The notes beneath the pieces were generated by a model. That model ran no database searches. It saw only the letters and a list, made by a program, of their open reading frames with translations, and was not told the origin of the DNA. Shown here one piece after another: positions 12,106-30,346 of a stretch of 64,000 bases of DNA. The stretch's first letter is position 1. Each line of letters begins with the position of its first letter. The position numbers were made by a program, and so were the translations under genes. This stretch comes from Williamsia muralis NBRC 105860 (lineage in GTDB: Bacteria > Actinomycetota > Actinomycetes > Mycobacteriales > Mycobacteriaceae): positions 682,001-746,000 of the forward strand of contig NZ_BDAP01000002.1 of the NCBI RefSeq assembly GCF_001598915.1, written 5' to 3'.

Positions 12106-12324
12106 ATGCGTGGGGATTCGTCATCGATCCTGTGCCTGTGGTGCGGATTCGAGCTCGCGGCGTCAAGATTTGCTGGTCCGGCGGCCGCTGCTGCCGTGGC
12201 CACCGCAAACGGCTGGTCGGTGAGCGACCACCACACGCTGTGTCCGTCATGCGCCACTGCCTTCGCGGCGATCCAGCAGAACGTCCTGGACGAAGATCGC
12301 GACTGCCCAACAACAGTTGGTTAG
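12106..12324 (+). CDS. Small zinc-ribbon-like protein
   Basis: This 72-residue protein has two CxxC pairs, CLWC near the N-terminus and CPSC near residue 48, about 33 residues apart. That is the layout of a small zinc ribbon. GAGGTGG lies eight bases before the chosen ATG; a GTG at 12094 is in frame but overlaps that site. The stop falls inside the IdeR box of the next gene. No family is recognised. Codon use looks like its neighbours, but the short length leaves the call moderate. Confidence 0.5.
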   Translation: MRGDSSSILCLWCGFELAASRFAGPAAAAAVATANGWSVSDHHTLCPSCATAFAAIQQNVLDEDRDCPTTVG

Positions 12325-12334
12325 GGTAACCTTC
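12316..12334 (+). promoter_or_regulatory. IdeR/DmdR-like iron box before the siderophore-interacting protein
   Basis: GTTGGTTAGGGTAACCTTC matches 15 of 19 positions of the mycobacterial IdeR consensus TWAGGTWAGSCTWACCTWA. It ends five bases before the ATG of the next gene, so bound repressor would block transcription start. Iron repression of that gene is expected. Confidence 0.75.
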
Positions 12335-12339
12335 CCCGC

Positions 12340-13218
12340 ATGGGATTTTCGTTTGCGCGGGTGGTCGAGAACACCGAGCTGAACCCGCGGCTCCGCCGGA
12401 TCGTTTTCTCCGTACCCGATGTGGCCGTCCTCGAACTGCCTGACCTGGCGGACGAAGTGGTCGGCATCTACTTTCCGACCGCTGGTGGCGGCCGGCCCCC
12501 GGCGATGGAGAACCGGGACGGTGTCTGGGGCTACTACGACCAGGAGACCCCACCGGAGGGTCGCAATTACACGGTTCGCTCTGTCGATCGGACTGCCAAC
12601 ACGATGGTGGTCGACTTCGTGGTGCACGACCACGGCGTCGCCACCTTGTGGGCGCAGGGTGCCCAGGTCGGGGACGAGGTCGGGATGTCCCACGCTCGAG
12701 GCTGGTACCGCCCTGAGGCAACCACCGAGTGGCAACTGCTGGTCGCCGACCTCGCGGGTCTGCCCGCGCTCGCCCGGATCATCGAGGGACTGCCTGCGCA
12801 GGCCCGGGTCACCGCCATCGTGGAGGTTGTCGACGAGTCCGATCTCGACTATCTGCCCCGGCGCGACAACGTGGACCTGGTCAGTCTGGTCGGCAGCGGA
12901 AACGGTTACGGCGACAGCCGACTCGGCGAGGCAGTCGAGCGGTTCGGTCACCCCGAGGGCCGCGGGTACTGCTGGTTCGCCGCCGAGGCGAAGGCATCGC
13001 GCGCTGTTCGCAAGCACTTCCGCAAGCAGTTCGGCTGGAAGGCCGATCAGTGCGACATCATCGGCTACTGGCGATTCGACGGGGAAGCCTGGGCCAAGAG
13101 GTTCGAGCAGGTCGGTGGTGAGCTGTACGCGGTGTATGCCGCAGCGCTCGCCGACGGCAAGAGCGAAAAGGTGGCTTCGGAGATCTTCGACGACGCGCTC
13201 GAACGCGCTGGGCTCTGA
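12340..13218 (+). CDS. Siderophore-interacting protein (ferric-siderophore reductase, ViuB-like)
   Basis: This 292-residue SIP-family flavoreductase binds FAD through an N-terminal barrel and uses a C-terminal Rossmann-like half to take electrons from NAD(P)H, reducing ferric siderophore in the cytoplasm. The FAD motif RNYTVRS begins near residue 75. The C-terminal part has WFAAEAKASRAVRKHFRKQFGW, typical of the family. An iron box lies immediately upstream. It is convergent with the transporter operon that follows. It probably serves the siderophores made at the right side of the window. Confidence 0.92.
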   Translation: MGFSFARVVENTELNPRLRRIVFSVPDVAVLELPDLADEVVGIYFPTAGGGRPPAMENRDGVWGYYDQETPPEGRNYTVRSVDRTANTMVVDFVVHDHGVATLWAQGAQVGDEVGMSHARGWYRPEATTEWQLLVADLAGLPALARIIEGLPAQARVTAIVEVVDESDLDYLPRRDNVDLVSLVGSGNGYGDSRLGEAVERFGHPEGRGYCWFAAEAKASRAVRKHFRKQFGWKADQCDIIGYWRFDGEAWAKRFEQVGGELYAVYAAALADGKSEKVASEIFDDALERAGL

Positions 13219-13230
13219 TCTCGCCGCACT

Positions 13231-14016
13231 TCATTCCGCGGTGAACATCGGCCGCCCGGACACCGGGTCACGGCTGATCCGGGCGCGTACGTCGAACACC
13301 GTGTGCAGCAGGTCGGCGGTCAGCACGTCGTCCGGATGACCGTCGGCGATGATCGTGCCGTCGCGCATCGCCACGATCCGATCGCAGTATCGCGCGGCCT
13401 GGTTGACGTCGTGGAGCACCATCACAACCGTTTTGTCATGTGCGCGAACGAGTTCGACGATCAGTTCCATCAGATCGATCTGATGCCGGATGTCGAGATA
13501 TGTGGTCGGCTCGTCGAGGAGCAACACGCCCGTGTCCTGGGCGAGTGCCATCGCGATCCAGGCCCGTTGACGTTCACCACCCGACAACGAATCGAGGCGC
13601 CGTTCGGCCATCGACGTCACCCCCGCCATCGACATCGCCCTGGCCATCACCTCGTCGTCGCGGCGACTGAGCATGGCAAGGGGGCCCAGCCGCGGATACC
13701 GGCCCTGTTCCACCAGCTCACGAACCCGCAACCCTGCCGGGATCGTGGAGGTCTGCGGAAGGATCGCGAGCCTGCGTGCAACGTCGACCGTCTTGCGCGT
13801 GGCGATGGGTTGACCGTCCAGTCGAACCTCCCCATGGCGGGGGGTGAGTACCCGGGCCAGAGCCATCAGCAGCGTGGACTTGCCCGAGCCGTTGGGCCCC
13901 ACCAGTGCTGTTGCGGTACCGGACTCGATCCGCAGGTTCAGGCCGTCGACGACGGCACGTCCGCGATAGCCGAGTTCGAGGTCGAATCCCTCGAGCAGCG
14001 GCGGATTTTGATTCAT
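13231..14016 (-). CDS. FecE-type ABC transporter ATPase (metallophore uptake)
   Basis: This 261-residue ATPase energises import of a metal chelate. Walker A is GPNGSGKSTLL, the ABC signature LSGGERQR, Walker B VLLLDEPT and the D-loop TTYLD; the switch His lies in VLHDVNQAARYCD. The start is the ATG at 14016, overlapping the upstream permease stop (ATGA). It is third in a coupled permease-permease-ATPase operon whose promoter carries a Zur-like box. FecE relatives handle siderophores, heme or B12 rather than free metal ions, so the cargo should be a metallophore complex. Confidence 0.92.
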   Translation of the reverse strand: MNQNPPLLEGFDLELGYRGRAVVDGLNLRIESGTATALVGPNGSGKSTLLMALARVLTPRHGEVRLDGQPIATRKTVDVARRLAILPQTSTIPAGLRVRELVEQGRYPRLGPLAMLSRRDDEVMARAMSMAGVTSMAERRLDSLSGGERQRAWIAMALAQDTGVLLLDEPTTYLDIRHQIDLMELIVELVRAHDKTVVMVLHDVNQAARYCDRIVAMRDGTIIADGHPDDVLTADLLHTVFDVRARISRDPVSGRPMFTAE

Positions 14017-15008
14017 CTGCGTTCCTTTCGGACGAGCCAGATCAGGTACGGCGCACCCAGTGACGCGGTGACGGCGCCGACCGGGAGGCCGGTGACCGCC
14101 GGGCCACTCCCGGGCAGATCGAGTGTGATGCTGAAGGCCAGGAGATCCGCGGCCGACAGAGCGATTGCCCCGAGCACCATGCTGACGGGTATCAGATTCC
14201 GATAGTCGCCGCCGACGAGGATGCGTGCCAGATGTGGTGCCATCAACCCGATGAACGCCACCGCTCCGGCTGCCGTGACGGCCGCTGCGGCCGCGAGCAC
14301 CGCGACCATCAGCAGCACGAAACGGGTTGGCGCCGTGCGCAATCCCAGACCCGTGGCGGTGATGTCGCCGAGCGAGAGGACATTGACCCGCGAGGATGCG
14401 AGCAGAGCAGCCACCCCGAGTACGAGGACCCAGGGCCACAAGGCATTCCAATCGGACTGCGTACGCGCGTTGAGTGACCCGATGAGCCATCGGAGCACCA
14501 CACCCATCGGCTGCGCGTCGACGACGAGCAGCAACGAGGTGACTGCGCCGAGGATGGCACCCAGCAAGATTCCCGCGACCGCGAGCGACCGTCGGCCGAC
14601 CAGGTACAGCAAGACACCGGCGGCGACTGCACCGACCAACGACGCGATGGCTGCCATGTCCTGGTGTGGGAACGCGAGGATGGCCACGACAACACCGAGT
14701 GCCGCGCCCGCCCCGACTCCGGTGGTTCCCGGTTCGGCGAGTGGATTGCCGATCACGGCTTGCAGCAGTGCGCCCGAGAGAGCAAGCAGGACACCGGCGC
14801 CCATGCCGACGAGTACCCGGGGGAGGCGGTACTTGAGGACGATGACCTCGTGTGCGCGGGTCTCCGACGTGCCCGTCAGTACTCGAAAGGTGTCGGCGGC
14901 GCCGAGGTCGGAACGCCCGATCAGCAGATGCGCCATCACGAGTGCGACGAGCACGACCGTGCCGCCGGCCAGGAGGGGGAGGGGCCGCAGCAGGTTCGGT
15001 TCCCTCAT
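14013..15008 (-). CDS. FecCD-type ABC permease (second subunit)
   Basis: This 331-residue integral membrane permease of the FecCD/BtuC family has about ten hydrophobic segments. Conserved features are RLPRVLVGMGAGVLLALSGALLQ, GNPLAEPGTTGVGAGAALG, and GAVAFIGLMAPHLAR, which contacts the ATPase. It overlaps both neighbours by ATGA, indicating a stoichiometric heterodimer with the preceding permease. Confidence 0.92.
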   Translation of the reverse strand: MREPNLLRPLPLLAGGTVVLVALVMAHLLIGRSDLGAADTFRVLTGTSETRAHEVIVLKYRLPRVLVGMGAGVLLALSGALLQAVIGNPLAEPGTTGVGAGAALGVVVAILAFPHQDMAAIASLVGAVAAGVLLYLVGRRSLAVAGILLGAILGAVTSLLLVVDAQPMGVVLRWLIGSLNARTQSDWNALWPWVLVLGVAALLASSRVNVLSLGDITATGLGLRTAPTRFVLLMVAVLAAAAAVTAAGAVAFIGLMAPHLARILVGGDYRNLIPVSMVLGAIALSAADLLAFSITLDLPGSGPAVTGLPVGAVTASLGAPYLIWLVRKERR

Positions 15009-16027
15009 GCCGCCGAGTCCTGGCGGCGTAGTGCGATGAGCAGCGTCGGGACGCCGATCAGGGTGGTGGTGATACCCACCGGGATCTCGATGGGATACAG
15101 CGCAATTCGGGACAAAAGGTCGGCTGTGGTGAGCAACACTGCGCCCGCGACCGGTGTCAGCCAGAAGACCCGGCGGGCGCTGGTGGTGTGCAGCGCCCAC
15201 CTGCACAGGTGCGGTGCCAACAGGGCCACGTACGCCACCGGGCCGCACACGCAAGCGACAACCGCAGCCAGGACGCCGGCGCACCCGAGCGCCGACAACC
15301 GTGCACGAAACACGTTGATGCCCAAGCCCGCTGCAACATCATCGCCGAGCGACAGCGCTGCCACGCGGTGCCGTAAGAACAGGGCTGCCGGTACGGCGAC
15401 AGTGAGCCAGGGAGCGACCACCGCGACGTGTGGCCAGCCGCGATCGCTGAGGCTTCCCAGGAGATAGCGGAACAGCAATGGCAGGTTGCCCTCGGTGCCC
15501 AGGCTCACGAGCGCGATCACGAGTCCAGACGCCAACGCGGTGACCGCCGAGCCGATCAGCAGCATCGTGGTGGGGTCGTGGGTTTTTCCCACTGCCACGA
15601 GCACCGTCGAGCCGGCCACTGCGGCGCCGAGCAGGGCGACGTACGGCAGCTGGTGCAGTCCCACCGGCAGCGCGAGGACGGTCACCGCGGTCAACACCAC
15701 GGCAGCGCCCGAGGACACGCCCAGGAGTTCGGGGCCGGCGATGCGGTTCTGCATCGCGTCCTGCATCAAGATGCCCGCCAGGCCGAGGGCGGCCCCGCAC
15801 ATCACGCCGAGCAGTGCTCGTGGCAACCGGGAATCCGCCACGTAGGGGTGAAGGGGATCGGAAACGTCGGTGAGTGCGGCGAAAGCCTCGAGTGGCGTCA
15901 CCACCGGGTCCCCGGCGCACAGGGCGGCCACCACCACGACTGCGATCGCGGCCGTACCCAGCAGCAACGAGCCGGTGAGCCGTCGGTTGGGTCGCCTCTG
16001 CGCAGTCGTATTGACAATGGTTATCAT
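15005..16027 (-). CDS. FecCD-type ABC permease (first subunit)
   Basis: This FecCD/BtuC-type permease of about 340 residues carries SRLPRALLGVMCGAALGLAG, ELLGVSSGAA and GPVAYVALLAPHLCRW. The ATG at 16027 lies inside the Zur-like palindrome. In-frame ATG codons at 16039 and 16042 are alternatives, and none has a clear ribosome-binding site, so a leaderless or very short-leader transcript is possible. It is divergent from the substrate-binding lipoprotein and shares its operator. Confidence 0.9.
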   Translation of the reverse strand: MITIVNTTAQRRPNRRLTGSLLLGTAAIAVVVVAALCAGDPVVTPLEAFAALTDVSDPLHPYVADSRLPRALLGVMCGAALGLAGILMQDAMQNRIAGPELLGVSSGAAVVLTAVTVLALPVGLHQLPYVALLGAAVAGSTVLVAVGKTHDPTTMLLIGSAVTALASGLVIALVSLGTEGNLPLLFRYLLGSLSDRGWPHVAVVAPWLTVAVPAALFLRHRVAALSLGDDVAAGLGINVFRARLSALGCAGVLAAVVACVCGPVAYVALLAPHLCRWALHTTSARRVFWLTPVAGAVLLTTADLLSRIALYPIEIPVGITTTLIGVPTLLIALRRQDSAA

Positions 16028-16029
16028 TT
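16009..16029. promoter_or_regulatory. Zur-like box 1, divergent importer promoter
   Basis: The core TGACAA-TGG-TTATCA is an imperfect Fur-family palindrome like the TGAxAATGATTxTCA sites of actinobacterial Zur. It lies between the permease operon and the lipoprotein gene and overlaps the permease start codon. Two closely similar sites occur at 17011-17032 and 22680-22700. It does not resemble the IdeR consensus. Confidence 0.75.
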
Positions 16030-16058
16030 CGCTCAACATCATCTGCAAGGGAGATCGA

Positions 16059-16994
16059 ATGCGCAAGTCCATCGCTCTGTCCACCACTCGCGGCCTCGTC
16101 GCGGCCGCATCGGCATTGGCGTTACTGGGGGTGGCAGCCTGCGGCACCGGCGGTGACGAGCCGGCCGCCGAGTCGATCGTCGTGACCGACGCAACCGGCA
16201 CCACGGTCACCCTGGCGGGCCCGGCCGACCGAATCGCCTGTCTGACACTGATCTGCGTCGACGCTCTCAAGGAAGTGGGGATCACCCCCGTTGCTTACCG
16301 GGAGGATCTGGCCCTCGATGAGCGGTTCTTCGGACCCGACGCGGACATGCGAAAGATCACCGGCGGCTTCGGTGAGGAAAACGTAGAAGACATCGCCATG
16401 TCCGAGCCCGACCTGGTCATCGGGCTCGGTGGAGTACAAGACGGGCTGCGAGCAGCTGTCGAGGAGTCCGCGCCGTTGTATCTGGTCGATCCGTCCTCGT
16501 GGCAGGACTCGGTCGAGTTCTTGCGCACCATAGGGCAATTGACGGGTAAGCAGGCAGAGGCGGACGCTTCGGCCCAATCGTTTGTCGAGCGCGTCGAAAC
16601 CGCGCGCCAGAACCGCAGTGACCTCACCACGTTGTCGATGTACGGGGAGCCGGGCAGTCTCGGCGTCGACTCCGTCGAAACGCCGGTCGGTTCACTTCTT
16701 GCCGAGGTCAGCGACTACCCATGGCCTGCCGGTACCGATGCCTTCGCAACCGTGTCGGTTGAGCAGATCGCAGGCGTCAACCCCGATGTCATCTTCGCGC
16801 AGGCATTTTCGTCCGGCGACGACGCGGAACCGCTGTCGGCGAGACTGGCGACGAATCCGATCTGGCCCTCGGTCGCGGCAGCGCAGAACAACCGCGTGGT
16901 CGAGGTGGAGGCGAGCCTGTGGGCCACCGGCCGCGGAACCGTGTCGTTGGGCTTTGTTCTCGATGAGGTGACGGGCGAGTTGGCAAAGTCCTGA
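16059..16994 (+). CDS. Metallophore-binding lipoprotein (FecB/BtuF type)
   Basis: This 311-residue periplasmic-binding-type protein has a signal peptide and lipobox GVAAC with Cys28. It should deliver a chelate to the divergent FecCD/FecE transporter. The fold is shown by VVTDATGTTVTLAGPADRIACL, then SEPDLVIGLGG and GVNPDVIFAQAF. AAGGGAGA precedes the ATG by four bases. The Zur-like box lies 30 bases upstream, and the next Zur-like box lies just behind the gene. Pairing with the RiPP genes downstream suggests the ligand is their product bound to zinc. Confidence 0.92.
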   Translation: MRKSIALSTTRGLVAAASALALLGVAACGTGGDEPAAESIVVTDATGTTVTLAGPADRIACLTLICVDALKEVGITPVAYREDLALDERFFGPDADMRKITGGFGEENVEDIAMSEPDLVIGLGGVQDGLRAAVEESAPLYLVDPSSWQDSVEFLRTIGQLTGKQAEADASAQSFVERVETARQNRSDLTTLSMYGEPGSLGVDSVETPVGSLLAEVSDYPWPAGTDAFATVSVEQIAGVNPDVIFAQAFSSGDDAEPLSARLATNPIWPSVAAAQNNRVVEVEASLWATGRGTVSLGFVLDEVTGELAKS

Positions 16995-17010
16995 CGGATG
17001 GCGCCCACGC

Positions 17011-17032
17011 TATTGAAAATGATTGTCAAATA
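17011..17032. promoter_or_regulatory. Zur-like box 2, RiPP operon promoter
   Basis: The core TTGAAAATGATTGTCAA is a near-perfect Fur-family palindrome, closest of the three to the published actinobacterial Zur sites I recall. It lies 82 bases before the precursor peptide ATG and 16 bases behind the lipoprotein gene, so the RiPP operon should have its own zinc-repressed promoter. Confidence 0.8.
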
Positions 17033-17113
17033 GCCTAGCGTGAGTCCTGGTCGTTCGATGAGCGACCGATTCGGTTGCGATGCAGCCGAATTCACTACAA
17101 GCGAAGGAGATTC

Positions 17114-17236
17114 ATGAACGACAATGAGTTCTTCCGTTCCATCCAGGCGCCGGTGAGCTTGGCGACCCATTCCGCGGGCCACAGCAACGCGCTCGTCGAG
17201 AACCCGTTCGACGACGCACAGGATTCCGAGGACTGA
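17114..17236 (+). CDS. Candidate RiPP (TOMM) precursor peptide, 40 aa
   Basis: This 40-residue peptide is preceded by GAAGGAGA at a four-base spacing and followed by a hairpin, then RRE, YcaO and transporter genes. The N-terminal part (MNDNEFFRSIQ) could be the leader helix. The middle holds VSLATHSAGHSN, with two His-Ser pairs separated by Ala-Gly. The acidic tail is NPFDDAQDSED. There is no cysteine, so azoles could come only from Ser or Thr (Ser9, Ser15, Thr18, Ser20, Ser24, Ser38). Two His-oxazole units would make plausible zinc ligands. The precursor role is inferred from context, size and expression signals; leader and core limits are unknown. Confidence 0.72.
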   Translation: MNDNEFFRSIQAPVSLATHSAGHSNALVENPFDDAQDSED

Positions 17237-17267
17237 TAGGTCCTCGCATCACCTGATGTGTCAAGAG

Positions 17268-17307
17268 CCCGCGTGCCATTCGAGTGACGTCCCGGGTGGC
17301 ACGCGGG
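17268..17307 (+). terminator. Hairpin between precursor and modification genes
   Basis: A perfect 11-bp stem (CCCGCGTGCCA / TGGCACGCGGG) with an 18-base loop follows the precursor stop by 31 bases and has no T-run. Such attenuators often keep precursor mRNA in excess over enzyme mRNA in RiPP operons. Confidence 0.65.
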
Positions 17308-17328
17308 ACCGGATGAAAAGCGAGACCC

Positions 17329-18042
17329 GTGCAGCTGTCCCCGAATACCGCCATATATCAAGCACATCAGGGCTTTGTCCTGCGCACCGCCGACGACGAG
17401 CACTTCGAACTCACTCTGGATGGTGACGAGGTGCACGAGCTCTTGTCGGTGCTGTCCGGCGATGGGTCATCTGCCTCGAGCAGGGTCCGTGCCGCCCTGA
17501 GTGCGTTGGTCGACGCAGGTCACGTGGTCACCACCGTCGCGCGGCCGACGGTGACAGTACGTGGGCAGGGCAAGATCGCGAGTGCGACCTCGAAGAGGCT
17601 GGGAGCGCGCGTGTCCGGTGAAAGCGCGAGCGCTGACGTCGTCTGTCACGTCAGCGACGATCCCGTTGATCCGGCCCAGATCGGCGCCGTGGACCTGGCC
17701 AGCTATCGCGACGGGATCATCCAGGTCATCACGCCGCAGGCGGTCGGTGTCGCGGACGTGGTCGGCCGGCGTCGTGCCTGCGCCATCCATCGTGACCGGA
17801 TGCAGTCGCATCACCGACCGGTTGACGGCGGGCTGCGGCTGGAGTCGACCCTGCATCCGGTGTCTGATCGGGCAGCTGATGTGATCGCAGACCTCATCGT
17901 CACCGAGATCGACGACCGACAGGGTCGGTCGATCACCGAGTCGCCGACAAGCCGTTCACAGCATCTGCTGACCACTGTCGACCTACGCACCCTGCGGATT
18001 GTCCGGCGACCTGTGTTGCCCATTCCCGCTGTGCCGCAATGA
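17329..18042 (+). CDS. RRE-containing TOMM partner (cyclodehydratase C-type) protein
   Basis: This 237-residue protein probably binds the precursor leader and presents it to YcaO. The first 65 residues (YQAHQGFVLRTADDEHFELTLDGDEVHELL, then an ALSALVDAGHVVTT helix) read like the RiPP recognition element of TOMM/ThiF-like C proteins. The rest is a reduced Rossmann-like region without an obvious nucleotide motif or CxxC zinc site. The start is the GTG at 17329; no strong ribosome-binding site is seen. Its stop overlaps the next ATG (ATGA). I assign the class by pattern and context, not by a strong motif. Confidence 0.65.
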   Translation: MQLSPNTAIYQAHQGFVLRTADDEHFELTLDGDEVHELLSVLSGDGSSASSRVRAALSALVDAGHVVTTVARPTVTVRGQGKIASATSKRLGARVSGESASADVVCHVSDDPVDPAQIGAVDLASYRDGIIQVITPQAVGVADVVGRRRACAIHRDRMQSHHRPVDGGLRLESTLHPVSDRAADVIADLIVTEIDDRQGRSITESPTSRSQHLLTTVDLRTLRIVRRPVLPIPAVPQ

Positions 18043-19376
18043 CTTGTTCGCTGACCGATACCCAGGTCGACGGTCTTCACACAAATGTTTTCCTGCCGGA
18101 CACCGCGCCGAGGTCTGTCCTCATCATCCGCACGCCCTACGATGCCGCCGCCTATCGGGCGGAAGCGCACGCGTGGGTTCGTCGGGGAATCGCGGTGGTC
18201 ACCCAGGATGTCCGGGGACGGCACCGGTCCCGCGGCCGTTTTCGGCCGTTCGAGAACGAGGGGGCCGATGGGCTCGCGACCCTGCAGTGGGTTGCGAGCC
18301 GATCATGGGCCGGCGCACCGGTGATCCTGTACGGCACGTCGTACTCCGCGCACTGCGCGGTGGAAACGGCGATCGCCGCGGCAGAGGCGAGGGTCGACGT
18401 CGGCGGGGTGTCGGTGGCGGTCCCCGCGCTCGGTCTCGGTGAGACGGCACGCAACATCGATGGATGCTTCTACCTGCAGTCGCGGGTGGGGTGGTGGCTC
18501 GAACACGGAGAAGGATCCGAATCGCTCGGCGCCGCAATCCCTGACGGTCTGCTCGACACGCTGCCGGTGGCCGACATCGGTCGCCGCGTCACACCGCCGA
18601 TCTCGGCGTGGGAGAGAGTGATTGGAGCCGATCGTCGAGATCGTGAACGCGGTGCCGAGGTTTCACGGCAGCGCTGTCCGTTGCTTGCCGTCGGTGGCAT
18701 GGCGGATTGGTTTGCGCAGGACACTGTCGACCTCTGGACGTCTTGGGGTGGCCCGGCGGCGCTGGTCATGGGTCCCTGGGACCACAGTCTGCGCGGCTCC
18801 GACCGAGCCCGCCGCATGGAGTCGTGGATTGATGACGTGTGTGCCGGCACCCCCACAACCGGCGCGCAGGTGCTCGGTCTCCCTGGAGGAACGGTTGACC
18901 TAACCCGGTGGCCGAGCACCGAGGCGTCAACTGTTCTGCCAGGCGGGCGATTTCACGCCGACCCCACCGATCCCTTCCCTTCGATGGCTCACGGGGCAGA
19001 CCTCAGCGAGGCGGCCGCGCGGCCGGATTGCCTTGTTCTCGACCTGCCGAACCGTTCTGCCGCACTCATCGGAACACCCACGGTGCGAGTGCATCCGACT
19101 GACGGTGCCGGCCACTGGGGCGCTCTGCTCGCCATCCGGCGCCGCGACGGTCGACTCGAACAGACGGCGCACGGTATGTCCACGCACACGACGATCCACC
19201 TCACCCCGGTGGCCGCCCACCTCGACACAGGAGAATCGATGGTCCTCATCCTCTCGGCGCATTCCTTCCCTCGCCACGCGCGCGATCTCCAGTCGCGCAG
19301 CGACCACCTCGCCGGCACCGAAACGCGTGCAGTCCTGCGCGGGGTCGAGTCCGTGACGTTGGACATGCCGGCATGA
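18039..19376 (+). CDS. CocE/NonD-type S15 hydrolase, possible leader peptidase
   Basis: This 445-residue alpha/beta hydrolase of the X-Pro dipeptidyl-peptidase S15 (CocE/NonD) family has the nucleophile elbow YGTSYSAH with Ser101 and the oxyanion neighbourhood TQDVRGRHRSRGRF. The acid lies in VGGMADWF and the histidine in MGPWDHSLRG. A C-terminal beta-sandwich follows, as in CocE. It is coupled by ATGA to the RRE gene before it and the YcaO gene after it. A maturation role such as cleaving the leader or trimming the product is an inference from position. Confidence 0.82.
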   Translation: MTCSLTDTQVDGLHTNVFLPDTAPRSVLIIRTPYDAAAYRAEAHAWVRRGIAVVTQDVRGRHRSRGRFRPFENEGADGLATLQWVASRSWAGAPVILYGTSYSAHCAVETAIAAAEARVDVGGVSVAVPALGLGETARNIDGCFYLQSRVGWWLEHGEGSESLGAAIPDGLLDTLPVADIGRRVTPPISAWERVIGADRRDRERGAEVSRQRCPLLAVGGMADWFAQDTVDLWTSWGGPAALVMGPWDHSLRGSDRARRMESWIDDVCAGTPTTGAQVLGLPGGTVDLTRWPSTEASTVLPGGRFHADPTDPFPSMAHGADLSEAAARPDCLVLDLPNRSAALIGTPTVRVHPTDGAGHWGALLAIRRRDGRLEQTAHGMSTHTTIHLTPVAAHLDTGESMVLILSAHSFPRHARDLQSRSDHLAGTETRAVLRGVESVTLDMPA

Positions 19377-20755
19377 ATTCAATTGTGGCAGAGTCGAACA
19401 CCTCGACCGTCCTGTCGGCCGAGGACCTGATCGATCCGTACACCGGCGTCATCCGGGCCCTCCACCCCGTGGATCGGCTCGACGCGATGCCCGAACGGTA
19501 CGTGGGACTGACCGCCGAGATCGCCGACACCAGAACGCATGGGAACTGGCCGAGTGACCTGGTGTCCCTCGGAACCACCTTCGCCGACGAGGCGGGTGCC
19601 CGTATCGCGGCGATCGGCGAGGCCGTCGAGCGGTACTGTGGCAATTACGTGCCGAAAGACCTGCTGCGGGCGACATCTCGGGAGTTACGCAGCGCGGGTG
19701 TGCGCCATCTAGGGCCCGATGAACTGAACTTCTTCGCCGAGTGGCAACTCGAGACGCCGAGGTTCCCGTTCGAGCGGTTCACCCATGACACGGTGATCGC
19801 CTGGTGTGAGGGCCGCGGTGACGACGGAGAACCGACGCTGGTGCCTGCGTCGTACGTCTATCTCAACTGGCGAACCGGAACCCGTAAGCGCGACCCGTGG
19901 CTACACCATCTGAACTACGCGGGCATCGCCACCGGAGCAGGCCTGGACGACGCCGCCGCCCGAGGGTTGCTCGAACTCGTCGAACGGGACTCACTGTCGT
20001 TGTGGTGGCATCTGAACCTGCCCGCCCGCGGTATCGACATCGGTAGCGTGCCAGGCCTGGCCGACGACCTCGGTGACACCCGATTACGTTGTCACCTGCT
20101 CGAATTGCCCGCCTACTTCGGTGTCCCGGTGGTCGCTGCGGTGATCCACGACCCGGAACTGGGCATCGTGGCGGGGGGCTTCTCCGCCAAGCTCGACCCG
20201 GCCGAGACCGCCCGGAAGGCGGTACTCGAGGCCATTCACAGCTGGGTGTTCACGCGGGGCCTGCTGGAGCCCGACGGCTGGGTGTTCGGCTCCATGGAGG
20301 CCGGCGTGCTCTCCCGCGGGTTGTATCTGGACCATCGAGCGGACCGCAGTTACCTCGATGCCGCCGGTGTGCGGAGCGAGCATGTCCGCGATCTCGGGGC
20401 GCAGGCGCAGGTGTGGCTGGATCCATTGACGCAGACAGCGTTGCTGCCGCGCTTCACCGAACCGGCCACCACGGTGGGTATCGATGAACTGCCCACCGGC
20501 GACCTCCCGGATCTCGAGCACCGACTGCGAGCCGCCGGCCACCAGATCGTTGTCTGCGACATCACCACGCCCGACATCGCATTGACGCCGCTGCGGGTGG
20601 CGCGGGTGTGCGCCGCCGGGTTGATCCCGAACGCCCCGGCGGGGTTCCCCTACTTCGGTCTGCCGCGGTGGCGGGAGGTCGCGCGAGCAGAGGCGACGGG
20701 CTGCGATCCGGATGACCCGAACTCGTTGTTGCTGGTGGCCCCTCCTAGCTTATGA
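19373..20755 (+). CDS. YcaO-domain cyclodehydratase (TOMM biosynthesis)
   Basis: This 460-residue YcaO protein uses ATP to activate peptide backbone amides, forming azolines from Ser, Thr or Cys. The ATP/Mg pattern IGEAVERYCG (Glu83, Glu86, Arg87), the LLELVERDSLSLWWHL segment and KAVLEAIHSW are typical. The C-terminus is APPSL, a weakened form of the proline-rich tail that inserts into the active site of many TOMM YcaOs. It is coupled to its neighbours by ATGA overlaps. With a SagB-like dehydrogenase nearby, oxazole or methyloxazole formation is predicted. Confidence 0.92.
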   Translation: MNSIVAESNTSTVLSAEDLIDPYTGVIRALHPVDRLDAMPERYVGLTAEIADTRTHGNWPSDLVSLGTTFADEAGARIAAIGEAVERYCGNYVPKDLLRATSRELRSAGVRHLGPDELNFFAEWQLETPRFPFERFTHDTVIAWCEGRGDDGEPTLVPASYVYLNWRTGTRKRDPWLHHLNYAGIATGAGLDDAAARGLLELVERDSLSLWWHLNLPARGIDIGSVPGLADDLGDTRLRCHLLELPAYFGVPVVAAVIHDPELGIVAGGFSAKLDPAETARKAVLEAIHSWVFTRGLLEPDGWVFGSMEAGVLSRGLYLDHRADRSYLDAAGVRSEHVRDLGAQAQVWLDPLTQTALLPRFTEPATTVGIDELPTGDLPDLEHRLRAAGHQIVVCDITTPDIALTPLRVARVCAAGLIPNAPAGFPYFGLPRWREVARAEATGCDPDDPNSLLLVAPPSL

Positions 20756-21978
20756 ACCCGTTTCGCACATTCGTGGTCGCGCGCGCGATCTGCTGGGCGG
20801 GCAATGCCGTCACGCTGGTGGCGCTGCCTCTTCTCGTCTACCAGCGGAGCGGCTCGGCACTGTTGTCCGGTGTGACGTTTGCCGTCGAGTCGCTGCCCTA
20901 TCTGCTGTTCGGGCTCTTCGCCGGCGCGGTGGCGGACCGGTTCGACCGCAAGTCCATCCTGGTTGTCGCCCAGATGCTGAGTGCAGTTGCGCTGGCATCG
21001 ATTCCGGTGGCGAATGTCGCTGGGGACGTCCTGATCGTGCACGCCCTCACCGTTGCCTTCCTCGTGTCCACGCTGTTCGTGTTCTACGATGCGGCGTCGT
21101 TCGGGGTGGTGCCCGCTCTGGTCGGGCGGGACCGGATAGCCGACGCCACAGGAACATTGGTGTCCGTGGGTACCGTCATCGGGATTGCCGGACCGTTGCT
21201 GGGGGGTGTGGCGGCCACTGCGCTCAGTCCCGCCGGTGCGATCGCGATCGATGCATGCTGCTATCTGTCTGCGGCGGCACTCACCGCCACCATCGCGATT
21301 CCCCCGAACGCCGTCGAAGCCGTTCCGGGCCATCGTATCTCGGATCAGATAGGTGAGGGGTTGCGATACATCTGGCAGCAGCCGGTGGTGCGCGCACTGA
21401 CTCTGGTGGGAATAGGTGTGAGCCTCGCCAACGGCGTGGTGGTCGGACTGATGGTGGTGGTGGGTGTCCGGCGACTGGGCCTGGGTGACGGCGACGCCCG
21501 ACTGGGTGCGTTGTATGCGGCCACCGCGCTGGGGGCGTTCCTCATCAGCCTCGTCAGCGCGAAGATCCAGCGCGTCGTGGACACCGGGAAGATCACCCTC
21601 GCCGGAATCGCCGTGTCCGCCGGGGCGATGCTGCTGTGGGCACAGACGCCCTGGTTTGTCGTCTCGCTGGTGATCCTGGTTGTGTACCAGGCTGCCAACA
21701 CGATGATCATCGTCAACGGAATCGTTGTGCGGCAATCGATCACGCCTGACGAGTTGCAGTCGAGGGTGAACACGACGGCGCGGATGATCGCCATGGGCGG
21801 TACCCCGTTCGGCGCTGCGATGGGTGGGGCGGTGGCGCAGGTCGGCGGTGTCGGTGTGGCGGTGTCCGCCGGCGCGGTGGCCCTGCTCTGTTCAGCCTTC
21901 GTCGGCTGGCGGATGGGGGTGGCTCGCCTGCCGCTGCTTGCCGACCTCACACCGAGCGCCCACGGCAAAGGCGAGTAG
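20752..21978 (+). CDS. MFS transporter, candidate RiPP exporter
   Basis: This 408-residue major facilitator protein has about twelve hydrophobic segments and the MFS loop motif GAVADRFDRKS between segments 2 and 3. It overlaps the YcaO stop by ATGA, so it is made together with the RiPP enzymes and is the obvious exporter of the mature product. Its last 87 bases overlap the antisense 3' end of the SagB gene. Confidence 0.9.
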   Translation: MNPFRTFVVARAICWAGNAVTLVALPLLVYQRSGSALLSGVTFAVESLPYLLFGLFAGAVADRFDRKSILVVAQMLSAVALASIPVANVAGDVLIVHALTVAFLVSTLFVFYDAASFGVVPALVGRDRIADATGTLVSVGTVIGIAGPLLGGVAATALSPAGAIAIDACCYLSAAALTATIAIPPNAVEAVPGHRISDQIGEGLRYIWQQPVVRALTLVGIGVSLANGVVVGLMVVVGVRRLGLGDGDARLGALYAATALGAFLISLVSAKIQRVVDTGKITLAGIAVSAGAMLLWAQTPWFVVSLVILVVYQAANTMIIVNGIVVRQSITPDELQSRVNTTARMIAMGGTPFGAAMGGAVAQVGGVGVAVSAGAVALLCSAFVGWRMGVARLPLLADLTPSAHGKGE

Positions 21979-22668
21979 TGGGACCTGGCTGCGCTGCAAC
22001 GAGAGCATCTCGCTGATCCGGTTGTCATAGAACCCGGATATCGCACAGCAGGCGAGGTCGAGTGCGGTGGCGATGAGGTACAGGTGTGCTGCAGCCAGGC
22101 CGGCATCGACATGCAAGGTGCGATAGTGCCGCTCAGAATATTTGGTCAGTGTCGCGTCGAGTTCGCCGACGAGAATGACGACAACCGGAGCGCGTCGGGC
22201 GAACTGCGGTTGGACGAGACCCTGTGCGAGTGCGCCGCGTACATCGCCTGTTCTGCGCCGGAGCAACCGGTGGTGGACGCGGTCGAACTCGTACACACCC
22301 ACGGGTATCTCGTCGAGTGTTTGCAGCGCAACCACGTAAGCGGTGGTCGACGGTAGGCCACCGGCGCTGGGATGGAAAGTCAACAAGCGCTCCTCGCCGT
22401 CGCCGGTTCGCACGGTGCGCTGTGGACCTAGCGCCCACCGCAGCAACGCCGACAGGTCTGGGTGGCCGAGCGGGCCGTAGCTGTACCGCGAGCGCCGGTC
22501 GCGGAGGACGCCGTCGATCGGAACCGATGGCGCGTCGGAGGGTTCACTCAGCGTGATCACCCCGTCGCCCTCGGACAGCCGGATCGGCGACACGGGAGGG
22601 CCCGAGTCGGTGAGGGCATCGTGGACTGCCCGTGCGCGCTCGACTCTTGTACCCACCAGACCATCCAT
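21892..22668 (-). CDS. SagB-type azoline dehydrogenase (nitroreductase family)
   Basis: This FMN-dependent oxidoreductase of about 258 residues would oxidise azolines to aromatic azoles. SagB-like features are VLRDRRSRYSY near the N-terminus, FHPSAGGLPS, and DAGLAAAHLYLIATALDLACCAISGF, with NRISEMLSL near the end. The ATG at 22668 is preferred because the upstream in-frame ATG lies within the Zur-like palindrome. The C-terminal residues (KQRQASHPHPPADEG) are encoded antisense to the MFS gene. It is convergent with the main RiPP operon but shares its regulator signal. Confidence 0.87.
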   Translation of the reverse strand: MDGLVGTRVERARAVHDALTDSGPPVSPIRLSEGDGVITLSEPSDAPSVPIDGVLRDRRSRYSYGPLGHPDLSALLRWALGPQRTVRTGDGEERLLTFHPSAGGLPSTTAYVVALQTLDEIPVGVYEFDRVHHRLLRRRTGDVRGALAQGLVQPQFARRAPVVVILVGELDATLTKYSERHYRTLHVDAGLAAAHLYLIATALDLACCAISGFYDNRISEMLSLQRSQVPLLAFAVGARCEVGKQRQASHPHPPADEG

Positions 22669-22679
22669 GGCATGTAGTC

Positions 22680-22700
22680 TAATGACAACGATTGTCATTA
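22680..22700. promoter_or_regulatory. Zur-like box 3, between sagB and rpmJ2
   Basis: A perfect palindrome TAATGACAA-N3-TTGTCATTA lies 11 bases before the SagB start and 95 bases before the cysteine-free bL36 gene. Cysteine-free ribosomal paralogues are classic Zur targets, which supports zinc as the signal for all three boxes. A TATAAG hexamer (22747-22752) may be the bL36 promoter -10 element. Confidence 0.82.
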
Positions 22701-22795
22701 GTTCGCCGGGCAGGTAGTGTCCTGAATGCACCGAAAGCCGGTCGCGTATAAGGCGCGCAGCAGGACACCCTGCCGCGCATGGACATTGGAGCACC

Positions 22796-22918
22796 GTGAA
22801 GGTCCGTGCATCACTCAAGTCGTTGAAGAACCAGCCCGGCTCGCAGGTCGTGCGCCGTCGCGGCAAGATCTTTGTGATCAACAAGGGGAACCCGCGGTTC
22901 AAGGCTCGGCAGGGGTAG
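22796..22918 (+). CDS. rpmJ2: Zinc-independent ribosomal protein bL36 paralogue (C-minus)
   Basis: This 40-residue bL36 ([20 protein letters not shown], then [17 protein letters not shown]) lacks the four zinc-ligand residues (three Cys, one His) of the housekeeping form. Such C-minus paralogues replace the zinc-binding copy during zinc starvation, freeing zinc, and are typically repressed by Zur. It starts with GTG. A Zur-like box lies upstream, shared with the divergent SagB gene. Confidence 0.93.
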
Positions 22919-28535: not shown

Positions 28536-30346
28536 GCGCCGCGACCGGGGATGCCACACCTGAGGTCTCGACGGAGAAACTCGCGATTGCGAACTTTCGC
28601 ACCACGATGGGCTACCTGGGCGTCGAGGTGCGTAAACAGATCTGGCCCCTCGTGCTGCTCGCCGGAATCATGACGGCTGCAGCAGCACTGGGGCTCGTCA
28701 CGCCGAGAGCCCTCGGGGAGATCGTCGACATCGCCGACGAAGGTGGCGCCACCGGCGAGATATGGCGCCTGGCCGGGGTCATGGCCGCTTCGGCGGTGGG
28801 TGCCGCGGTGCTCGCCGGACTCGGAGTCCGTTTGTCCGCGAAGATCTTCGAGACGATTCTGGCGCATCTGCGAGAGACCATGCTGGCCGCCTCGCTGCGG
28901 CTGCCGCTTGCGCGCGTGGAGGCCGCCGGCAGTGGTGACCTGGTGTCCAGGGCCACCGACGATGTCAGCACCGTGAGCCAGGCCATCGGATCGGTGGTAC
29001 CCGCCCTTCTCACAGCCACTTTCACCATCGCCGTGACGTTTGTCGGCCTGGCGCTGCTGGATTGGCGTTTCCTGTTGGTTCTCGTGGTGGTCATGCCGGT
29101 CTATGTGAACGGTGTGCGGATGTTCCTGAAGAAGGCACCCGCGATGTTTGCCGCGGAACGGGCTGCCACCGCCGAGCGGGCCCATCACGTACTCGGCTCG
29201 ATCCGCGGGTTGGACACCGTGCACGCATTCGAGTTGTCGCAGTCGCTGAACGGCCGGATTGAGCGTCATTCCTGGTCGGTGGTCCGCTGGTTCATGCGTG
29301 CGATCGTGCTGCAGAACCGACTCGGCGCCCGCATCAACCTGGGCGAGTTCGTCGGCATGACAACCATTTTGATCATCGGGTTCGTGCTGGTCGGGTCGGA
29401 CTCGCTCACCGTCGGCGCAGTGACCGCAGCCATGCTCTATTTCCTGTTGTTGTTCGACCCGATCGGACGGGTCATGTTGCTGGTGAACGACCTGCAGTCC
29501 GGCGCAGCCGCTCTCGGTCGCATCGTGGGCGTGATCGAGGAGGCGGACCGCGCGGCGACCACCACGACGGCCGTCGACACCAAGCCGGCCCGGCCTGCGC
29601 CGGGGGCGCCACTGGTCGAGATCCGCAACGTCAGCTATTCGTATTCGCCAGAGCACGAGGTGCTGCACGACATCTCGCTGTCGATCGCGGCGGGAGAACA
29701 CATCGCCGTGGTGGGATCATCGGGCGCCGGGAAGACGACACTGGCCACCATCGTCGCCGGTATCCACATGCCGTCCGAGGGACGTGTGCTGTTGGGTGGC
29801 AGGGACATCACGTCCATCGACCGCACCGAACTGGCGCGTTCGACTGCGCTGGTCACCCAGGAGGTGCACGTCTTCAGCGGAACGCTGGCCTCGGACCTTC
29901 GAATCGCCGCGCCGGACGCCGACGATGATCAGCTCTGGGCCGCACTGGATCTCGTCGATGCGGGTCCGTGGGTACGTGCGTTGCCCGATGGCATCGAGAC
30001 GGTTGTCGGCGAGCAAGGGCACCACCTCACACCGATGCAGTCGCAACAACTCGCCCTGGCCCGGATCGTTCTGCTCGACCCCGAGATGGCGATACTCGAC
30101 GAGGCGACCGCCGACGCCGGCAGCGCAGGTGCGGGTGTCCTCGAGGCCTCGGCGGAAGCGGCCCTGCGTGGACGCTCGGCACTCATTGTGGCGCATCGCC
30201 TGAGCCAGGCGGCTCGCGCCGACCGCATCGTCTTCATGGAACGCGGACGGATCGTCGAAGTGGGTACACACGCCGAACTCGTCTCGCTCGGAGGCCGTTA
30301 CGGCAACCTCTGGAGGGCTTGGTCTCGGGGCCGCACGCAGAGCTGA
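28532..30346 (+). CDS. ABC transporter half with degenerate signature motif (siderophore transport)
   Basis: This 604-residue exporter-type half transporter has an intact Walker A (VGSSGAGKTTLA) and Walker B (MAILDEAT). The signature is replaced by LTPMQSQQLALAR, where LSGGQ is expected. Together with the preceding protein, one composite ATP site has good Walker and signature motifs and the other has neither. It overlaps the previous gene by ATGA. Its stop is followed by a 188-base intergenic region containing an IdeR-like box. Confidence 0.87.
   Translation: MSAATGDATPEVSTEKLAIANFRTTMGYLGVEVRKQIWPLVLLAGIMTAAAALGLVTPRALGEIVDIADEGGATGEIWRLAGVMAASAVGAAVLAGLGVRLSAKIFETILAHLRETMLAASLRLPLARVEAAGSGDLVSRATDDVSTVSQAIGSVVPALLTATFTIAVTFVGLALLDWRFLLVLVVVMPVYVNGVRMFLKKAPAMFAAERAATAERAHHVLGSIRGLDTVHAFELSQSLNGRIERHSWSVVRWFMRAIVLQNRLGARINLGEFVGMTTILIIGFVLVGSDSLTVGAVTAAMLYFLLLFDPIGRVMLLVNDLQSGAAALGRIVGVIEEADRAATTTTAVDTKPARPAPGAPLVEIRNVSYSYSPEHEVLHDISLSIAAGEHIAVVGSSGAGKTTLATIVAGIHMPSEGRVLLGGRDITSIDRTELARSTALVTQEVHVFSGTLASDLRIAAPDADDDQLWAALDLVDAGPWVRALPDGIETVVGEQGHHLTPMQSQQLALARIVLLDPEMAILDEATADAGSAGAGVLEASAEAALRGRSALIVAHRLSQAARADRIVFMERGRIVEVGTHAELVSLGGRYGNLWRAWSRGRTQS

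Follow-up and report, generated by a model that had tools for sequence, protein, structure and literature searches.

A streptamidine-family peptide cluster in Williamsia muralis with predicted Zur control and a likely role in zinc scavenging

We analyzed a stretch of 64,000 nucleotides (the window, in which all positions below are numbered) from Williamsia muralis NBRC 105860 (GCF_001598915.1, contig NZ_BDAP01000002.1, positions 682,001 to 746,000 of the forward strand). Positions 13231 to 22918 hold a cluster for a ribosomally synthesized and post-translationally modified peptide (RiPP). All parts named in a preliminary description of this DNA, namely a FecBCDE-type importer, a YcaO enzyme, a SagB-like dehydrogenase, a major facilitator superfamily (MFS) exporter, an S15-type hydrolase, a 40-residue precursor, and a Cys-free ribosomal protein bL36, were recovered by profile matches (Table 1), with the FecE, FecD, FecC, FecB, YcaO, Peptidase_S15, and MFS_3 domains all exceeding their Pfam cut-offs. 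The FecB-like protein carries LGVAACG, which we take to be a lipobox-like motif. A second bL36, with three Cys residues, is encoded elsewhere in the genome, and the YcaO of the window is 98% identical to that of W. muralis BULT 1.1.

Table 1. Features of the cluster, with the matches by which they were assigned
Feature	Position	Strand	Basis
fecE-like ATPase (amiF)	13231..14016	-	ABC_tran (Pfam) 113.1 bits; FecE-type NCBIfam model best, under its cut-off
fecD-like permease	14013..15008	-	FecCD 241.6 bits
fecC-like permease	15005..16027	-	FecCD 240.2 bits; predicted start ATG 16027 within box 1
Zur-type box 1, between fecC and fecB	16009..16029		33.5 bits, published-site matrix
fecB-like substrate-binding lipoprotein	16059..16994	+	Peripla_BP_2 64.4 bits
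Zur-type box 2, upstream of precursor	17011..17031		33.2 bits, same matrix as box 1
amiA-type precursor, 40 residues	17114..17236	+	NCBIfam NF040714 "streptamidine family RiPP" 54.7 bits, cut-off 40
Predicted core THSAGH	17165..17182	+	aligned to published core HLSATH; putative boundary
Strong hairpin, amiA-amiB spacer	17268..17307	+	arms 17268-17278 and 17297-17307; RNA fold of spacer z -5.00
amiB-type RRE/E1-like YcaO partner, 237 residues	17329..18042	+	AlphaFold model and Foldseek
amiC-type S15/CocE hydrolase	18039..19376	+	Peptidase_S15 93.2 bits
amiD-type YcaO	19373..20755	+	YcaO 165.4 bits
MFS exporter, at amiT1-T2 position	20752..21978	+	MFS_3 91.7 bits; EntS model 108.9 bits, under its cut-off
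amiE-type SagB-like dehydrogenase	21892..22698	-	TIGR03605 109 bits, cut-off 78.4; predicted start ATG 22698 within box 3, alternative ATG 22668
Zur-type box 3, between amiE and bL36	22680..22700		33.7 bits, best in window
Cys-free ribosomal protein bL36	22796..22918	+	Ribosomal_L36 67.6 bits, no Cys

Because the precursor scores above the cut-off of NF040714, the cluster is, by its sequence, a member of the streptamidine (ami) family. The preliminary description knew of no characterized system of this kind; this family has been in print since 2021, along with its authors' suspicion of metal import (PMC8442711), and was reported there from more than 230 species with no function found. The published gene set comprises amiF1-F4 (fecBCDE), amiA, amiB, amiC, amiD, and amiE, with many clusters of the family varying in genes, and all of these are represented here by family, fold, and place. 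We did not find at the cluster the ATP-binding cassette (ABC) exporters amiT1-T2 of the major ami subset, in whose place the MFS gene stands. This replacement does not exclude membership in the family, since loss of amiT1-T2 lowers production without abolishing it (PMC8442711) and family clusters vary in genes. Leader removal is the likely task of the amiC-type hydrolase, as proposed in PMC8442711.

The 237-residue amiB-type protein had no family match in Pfam or NCBIfam. Its AlphaFold model (pLDDT, the predicted local distance difference test, 83.2) found its best Foldseek matches in the PDB in McbBCD (E 3.0e-6) and TruD (E 6.2e-6). McbBCD is the microcin B17 synthetase, and McbB and TruD stand for the leader-binding, E1-like proteins that work with YcaO enzymes. 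Given these matches, the label of an RRE-type partner (RRE, RiPP recognition element) that the protein had been given earlier fits the modeled fold. We assigned AmiB by fold and place and AmiE by enzyme class and place. We mapped 34 larger related loci (662 kb; near copies L030 and L101 left out), and tblastn with the SagB-like protein of the window reached 12 of them and with its AmiB 8 of them, which gave no direct evidence of sequence kinship to the Streptomyces AmiE and AmiB. By protein clustering, 22 of 35 loci carry an AmiB-like protein. As a separate observation, hairpins of differing sequence occur in the amiA-amiB spacer of all four loci folded, where they perhaps protect the precursor mRNA or thin read-through.

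The one solved product of the family, streptamidine, is the hexapeptide HLSATH closed at its N terminus into a six-membered amidine ring; it contains no azole (PMC8442711). For a dehydrated THSAGH, we predict an [M+H]+ of 591.2634, and the same sum reproduces the published 647.3260 for HLSATH. The cluster had first been described as encoding an azole RiPP, i.e., a zincophore of the thiazole/oxazole-modified microcin (TOMM) type, and this part of the description was not supported. A YcaO accompanied by a SagB-like dehydrogenase would suit such a product, as would the essential role of the dehydrogenase in a relative (PMC8442711) and a Ser at position 3 of all nine cores described below. The precursor contains no Cys, however, and the predicted core, with one Thr and one Ser, is not the Ser/Thr/Cys-rich core of the azole type; the SagD-type cyclodehydratase model TIGR03604 scored 214.5 against a cut-off of 219.25, and no sequence feature at the cluster indicates an azole. 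Considering also that the solved relative is azole-free, we regard an azole zincophore as very unlikely.

Among 36 unique precursor tails, we found nine six-residue cores (motif A), all with His6, Ser3, and Ala4 and with a single additional His, located at position 1 (e.g., HLSATH, HASATH, and HDSASH) or position 2 (THSAGH and THSATH). Our search pattern required His6 but not this one-of-two rule. Precursors of a second type (motif B), from Planobispora, Thermoactinospora, Actinomadura, and one further genome, carry AHPTCNHALV, again with His1 and His6, and their loci are also boxed, at 22.8 to 30.0 bits. Since a survey for motif B yielded 1 of 394 genomes, this motif rests on five loci, among which the L134 precursor is the same as that of L038. 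Such a fixed His pair would meet the needs of a zinc ligand. All 36 tails continue after the core with SNALVENPF, of which the pattern required SNALV. It is possible, if doubtful, that the mature peptide is longer or more modified than streptamidine, which would then be a breakdown product of an intact zinc ligand, a variant compatible with a zinc-binding product. This conserved extension would be consistent with such a peptide, as would the shorter fragments, the unexplained m/z 414.69 ion, and the essential AmiE of unexplained role reported in PMC8442711. On the other hand, SNALVENPF may be a recognition site, and the native host yields substantial streptamidine, with the 414.69 ion not seen there (PMC8442711).

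Three similar Fur-family palindromes had been noticed at the three promoter regions of the cluster. We scored them with a 21-bp matrix built from published sites only, i.e., 4 sites of Corynebacterium glutamicum that were Zur bound in band shifts (PMC2823685) and 12 of Mycobacterium smegmatis predicted before Zur-controlled genes and smtB (PMC7174638). Confirming the earlier observation, the palindromes rank first to third in the 64 kb at 33 to 34 bits, within the 27.0 to 40.1 bits of the training sites, and the next scores are 14.0 and 7.9 bits. The fourth-best site (29355-29375; 14.0 bits) is probably a chance match. All three cluster promoters show the 7-1-7 / 10-1-10 form of Zur operators; PMC2823685 cites TGAAAATGATTTTCA as the 7-1-7 consensus of Streptomyces coelicolor Zur. 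The probable start codons of fecC and amiE fall within boxes 1 and 3, and C. glutamicum is described as having leaderless genes under Zur control (PMC2823685).

The pattern TGANAAYGNTTNTCA has five exact matches on both strands of the 5.54-Mb genome (22 contigs), three of them in the cluster. The other two precede an AztD gene (NF038015, 438.9 bits; cut-off 400) and an ArsR/SmtB gene. The latter is followed by a Fur-family gene, the smtB-zur order described for M. smegmatis (PMC7174638); no NCBIfam Fur/Zur model matched the Fur-family protein above its cut-off, and we name it a candidate Zur by this gene order. With one mismatch, TGANAAYGNTTNTCA gave 41 genome matches against 6 for a reversed control pattern, and matrix scoring of genome sites took in 25 pattern sites (L004-L028). 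Under a looser pattern with three mismatches, the window was not unusual (6 matches against 4.43 expected), and the case for the boxes therefore rests on the close matches.

The preliminary description had suggested a search for this gene set across Mycobacteriales. The precursor hidden Markov model (HMM) hit 4 of 396 phylum-wide genomes, 6 of 9 Williamsia genomes, 6 of 298 from the window's own order, 29 of 297 from the family of G104, 3 of 198 from the order of G387, and 5 of 149 from the family of G133 (overlapping samples), and a search with YcaO returned 16 named loci. The precursor pattern required HSNALV, which all loci from the streptamidine HMM searches fitted. There were 81 precursor occurrences, including loci fetched twice; ungapped dereplication left 45, which retain close relatives with indels and are not 45 independent events. 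A box of at least 18 bits lies upstream of the precursor in 42 of these 45 loci, compared with 3 of 9,000 dinucleotide shuffles, and in 22 it reaches at least 27.0 bits, the lowest training-site score. The three promoters below 18 bits belong to L036 (16.8), L091 (16.7), and L050 (-10.1). Genome G133 carries the identical precursor three times (L047, L049, and L050), and at least the L050 copy lacks an upstream Zur box.

Within the 34 larger loci, the 64 sites of at least 18 bits fall mainly at amiA (28) and fecB (19), with the others at MRF (4), amiE (3), a beta-propeller gene (3), and motif-B precursors (2) or elsewhere (5, two of which lie near Fec-type genes, in L094 and L106). MRF, a GTPase, is the CobW-like protein under Zur control in M. 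smegmatis (PMC7174638); the one protein tested here scored 305.2 bits with NF047431, under the cut-off of 375. Of 27 loci, 21 have a site of at least 15 bits no more than 700 nt from fecB. Motif-B loci account for four of the six without one, and there the box lies instead across the beta-propeller gene or precursor promoter. Permeases of the FecC/D type were found by tblastn in 31 of the 34 loci. A FecE-like match reaches the end of the examined stretch in L103 and L105, and no permease of this type was seen in L113. We made no use of the FecE tblastn match obtained in 34 of 34 loci, which could be another ABC ATPase. As a side observation, a contig labelled Kitasatospora arboriphila (L030) has a locus with a YcaO 97% identical to that of the window, and this assembly is likely mislabelled or contaminated.

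The choice of metal was controlled with paralogous genes. In nine Williamsia genomes, all eight Cys-free bL36 genes have an upstream box (31.7 to 36.4 bits), whereas none of the nine Cys-containing bL36 genes has one of at least 15 bits. Similarly, of the two ZnuA homologues in each genome, one is boxed at 27.7 bits in 9/9 and the other has no box of at least 14 bits in 9/9. In Williamsia, then, the matrix tells the genes of zinc starvation apart from paralogous ones. The same comparison bears on an iron pathway of siderophore type, which the Fec names suggest. The best matches of the transporter are to iron models of the Fec and Fhu types, all under cut-off, and a gene for a SIP-type ferric-siderophore reductase (12316-13218, + strand) with an IdeR-like site (14/19 at 12316-12334) lies beside fecE. 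We scored ami promoters with an IdeR consensus, and their mean match was at chance level (9.64/19 versus 9.61 in shuffles), so that IdeR control of these promoters was rejected. SIP occurs in 1 of the 34 related loci; we therefore rejected it as part of the cluster, and it is likely a separate iron-regulated gene. PMC8442711 labels the transporter genes iron transporters, while its chrome azurol S (CAS) assay was negative. Together with the match of the boxes to Zur sites, these results make an iron pathway very unlikely.

The bracketing of the cluster by bL36 was upheld in one respect: the Cys-free gene does adjoin the cluster here, and for four of the eight such genes in Williamsia an ami precursor is no more than 9 kb away. 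The linkage is local and was rejected as a family trait, since tblastn located such a bL36 in two of the 34 related loci, L029 and L094. The reading of zinc as the signal fared better, in that Zur control of the cluster is strongly predicted from its promoters and the prediction extends across the ami family.

A further partner recurs in the family. A beta-propeller protein (family c6; L102:5691-6878, - strand, and at least 356 relatives) has four invariant His residues and no Pfam or NCBIfam match above cut-off, and in several loci a Zur box separates its gene from amiA or fecB. In fold comparison, the zinc chaperone AztD is its best VIA-align match. We rejected a sequence link between the two, the profile score being 4.8 bits, and the support comes from the fold comparison; a shared predicted fold would not by itself indicate function.

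Considering that the genes for the peptide and its likely exporter and importer lie behind Zur-type boxes here, and that such boxes precede the peptide gene in many relatives, the pathway is likely one of zinc scavenging induced by zinc starvation, with the RiPP as zincophore. As would be expected of a zincophore, an exporter (MFS) and a chelate-type importer (FecBCDE type) are encoded with the biosynthetic genes, and a zinc chelate that leaves the cell and is taken up again would fit this gene set and the two-His core. In the mechanism that we propose, Zn-Zur would repress all units while zinc is ample, and falling zinc would induce the whole set at once, from precursor and enzymes to exporter, importer, and zinc-free bL36. 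YcaO would receive AmiA from AmiB and, acting with AmiE and AmiC, would likely close the core THSAGH at its N terminus into a six-ring amidine like the published one on HLSATH. After export through the MFS protein, the peptide would hold Zn(II) by its amidine and both imidazoles, perhaps also by Ser, and FecB would catch the complex for import by FecCDE. The zinc-free bL36 would meanwhile replace the zinc-binding form.

Several published observations weigh against this proposal (PMC8442711). Seven metals including zinc were tried with streptamidine and no binding was seen, a YcaO mutant had no phenotype under metal starvation, loss of fec genes abolished production, and AmiE is essential with no explained role. 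ZnuA redundancy could mask a phenotype in the starvation test, and acidic liquid chromatography-mass spectrometry (LC-MS) could strip imidazole-bound zinc. The negative binding results would also suit a peptide that is Zur controlled and yet no exported zincophore, serving instead in intracellular or surface zinc handling, as a signal, or as a weapon under zinc scarcity, and the AztD-like propeller could handle zinc by proteins alone. We consider this unlikely, as the Fec-type permeases of most loci and the box that fecB often has to itself would be needless for a signal or weapon, and streptamidine showed no antibacterial or antifungal activity (PMC8442711). Overall, we favor, with moderate confidence and from sequence, a streptamidine-family cluster induced by zinc starvation through Zur, whose product would be a two-His peptide that is exported, binds zinc, and is re-imported. 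For a broader proposal, we put the chances at about even: that the whole streptamidine family, with motifs A and B, consists of Zur-controlled ribosomal zincophores with an amidine, a fixed His pair, their own FecBCDE, and often an AztD-like propeller, the published iron labels and negative binding reflecting the wrong metal or assay.

We found no report of Zur control of the streptamidine family in the open-access literature, most subscription papers and preprints lying outside this scope. A term search did not find "Zur" in the main text of PMC8442711, and a 2025 regulon-mining paper ties Zur to coelibactin with neither "RiPP" nor "streptamidine" in its main text (PMC12161575). Should ami clusters prove to be under Zur, this would at once indicate the metal, the condition for induction, and suitable assays, and the peptides would represent an inexpensive, genetically encoded way to make a zinc ligand. 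To our knowledge, no earlier ribosomal zincophore exists, and the ami peptides would be the first.

Among known systems, methanobactin is likewise ribosomal, made under metal starvation, exported, metal binding, and taken back, but it serves copper, is made by other enzymes, and uses Cys-derived ligands. Coelibactin of S. coelicolor and ethylenediamine disuccinate (EDDS) of Amycolatopsis japonicum differ from the ami peptide in not being ribosomal peptides. They resemble it as metallophores of Actinobacteria whose genes are governed by Zur (PMC6103462). The AztABCD zinc importer is related through the boxed AztD of this genome and the fold of the ami propeller and differs in that AztC draws zinc from the protein chaperone AztD, without a peptide ligand (PMC6689063). 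Closest are the published streptamidine clusters (PMC8442711), which share the precursor family, fecBCDE, the AmiB-like partner, hydrolase, YcaO, and dehydrogenase; the Williamsia cluster differs from them by its MFS gene in place of AmiT1-T2, its core THSAGH rather than HLSATH, a divergent dehydrogenase gene beside a Cys-free bL36, and, relative to the published description, its Zur boxes.

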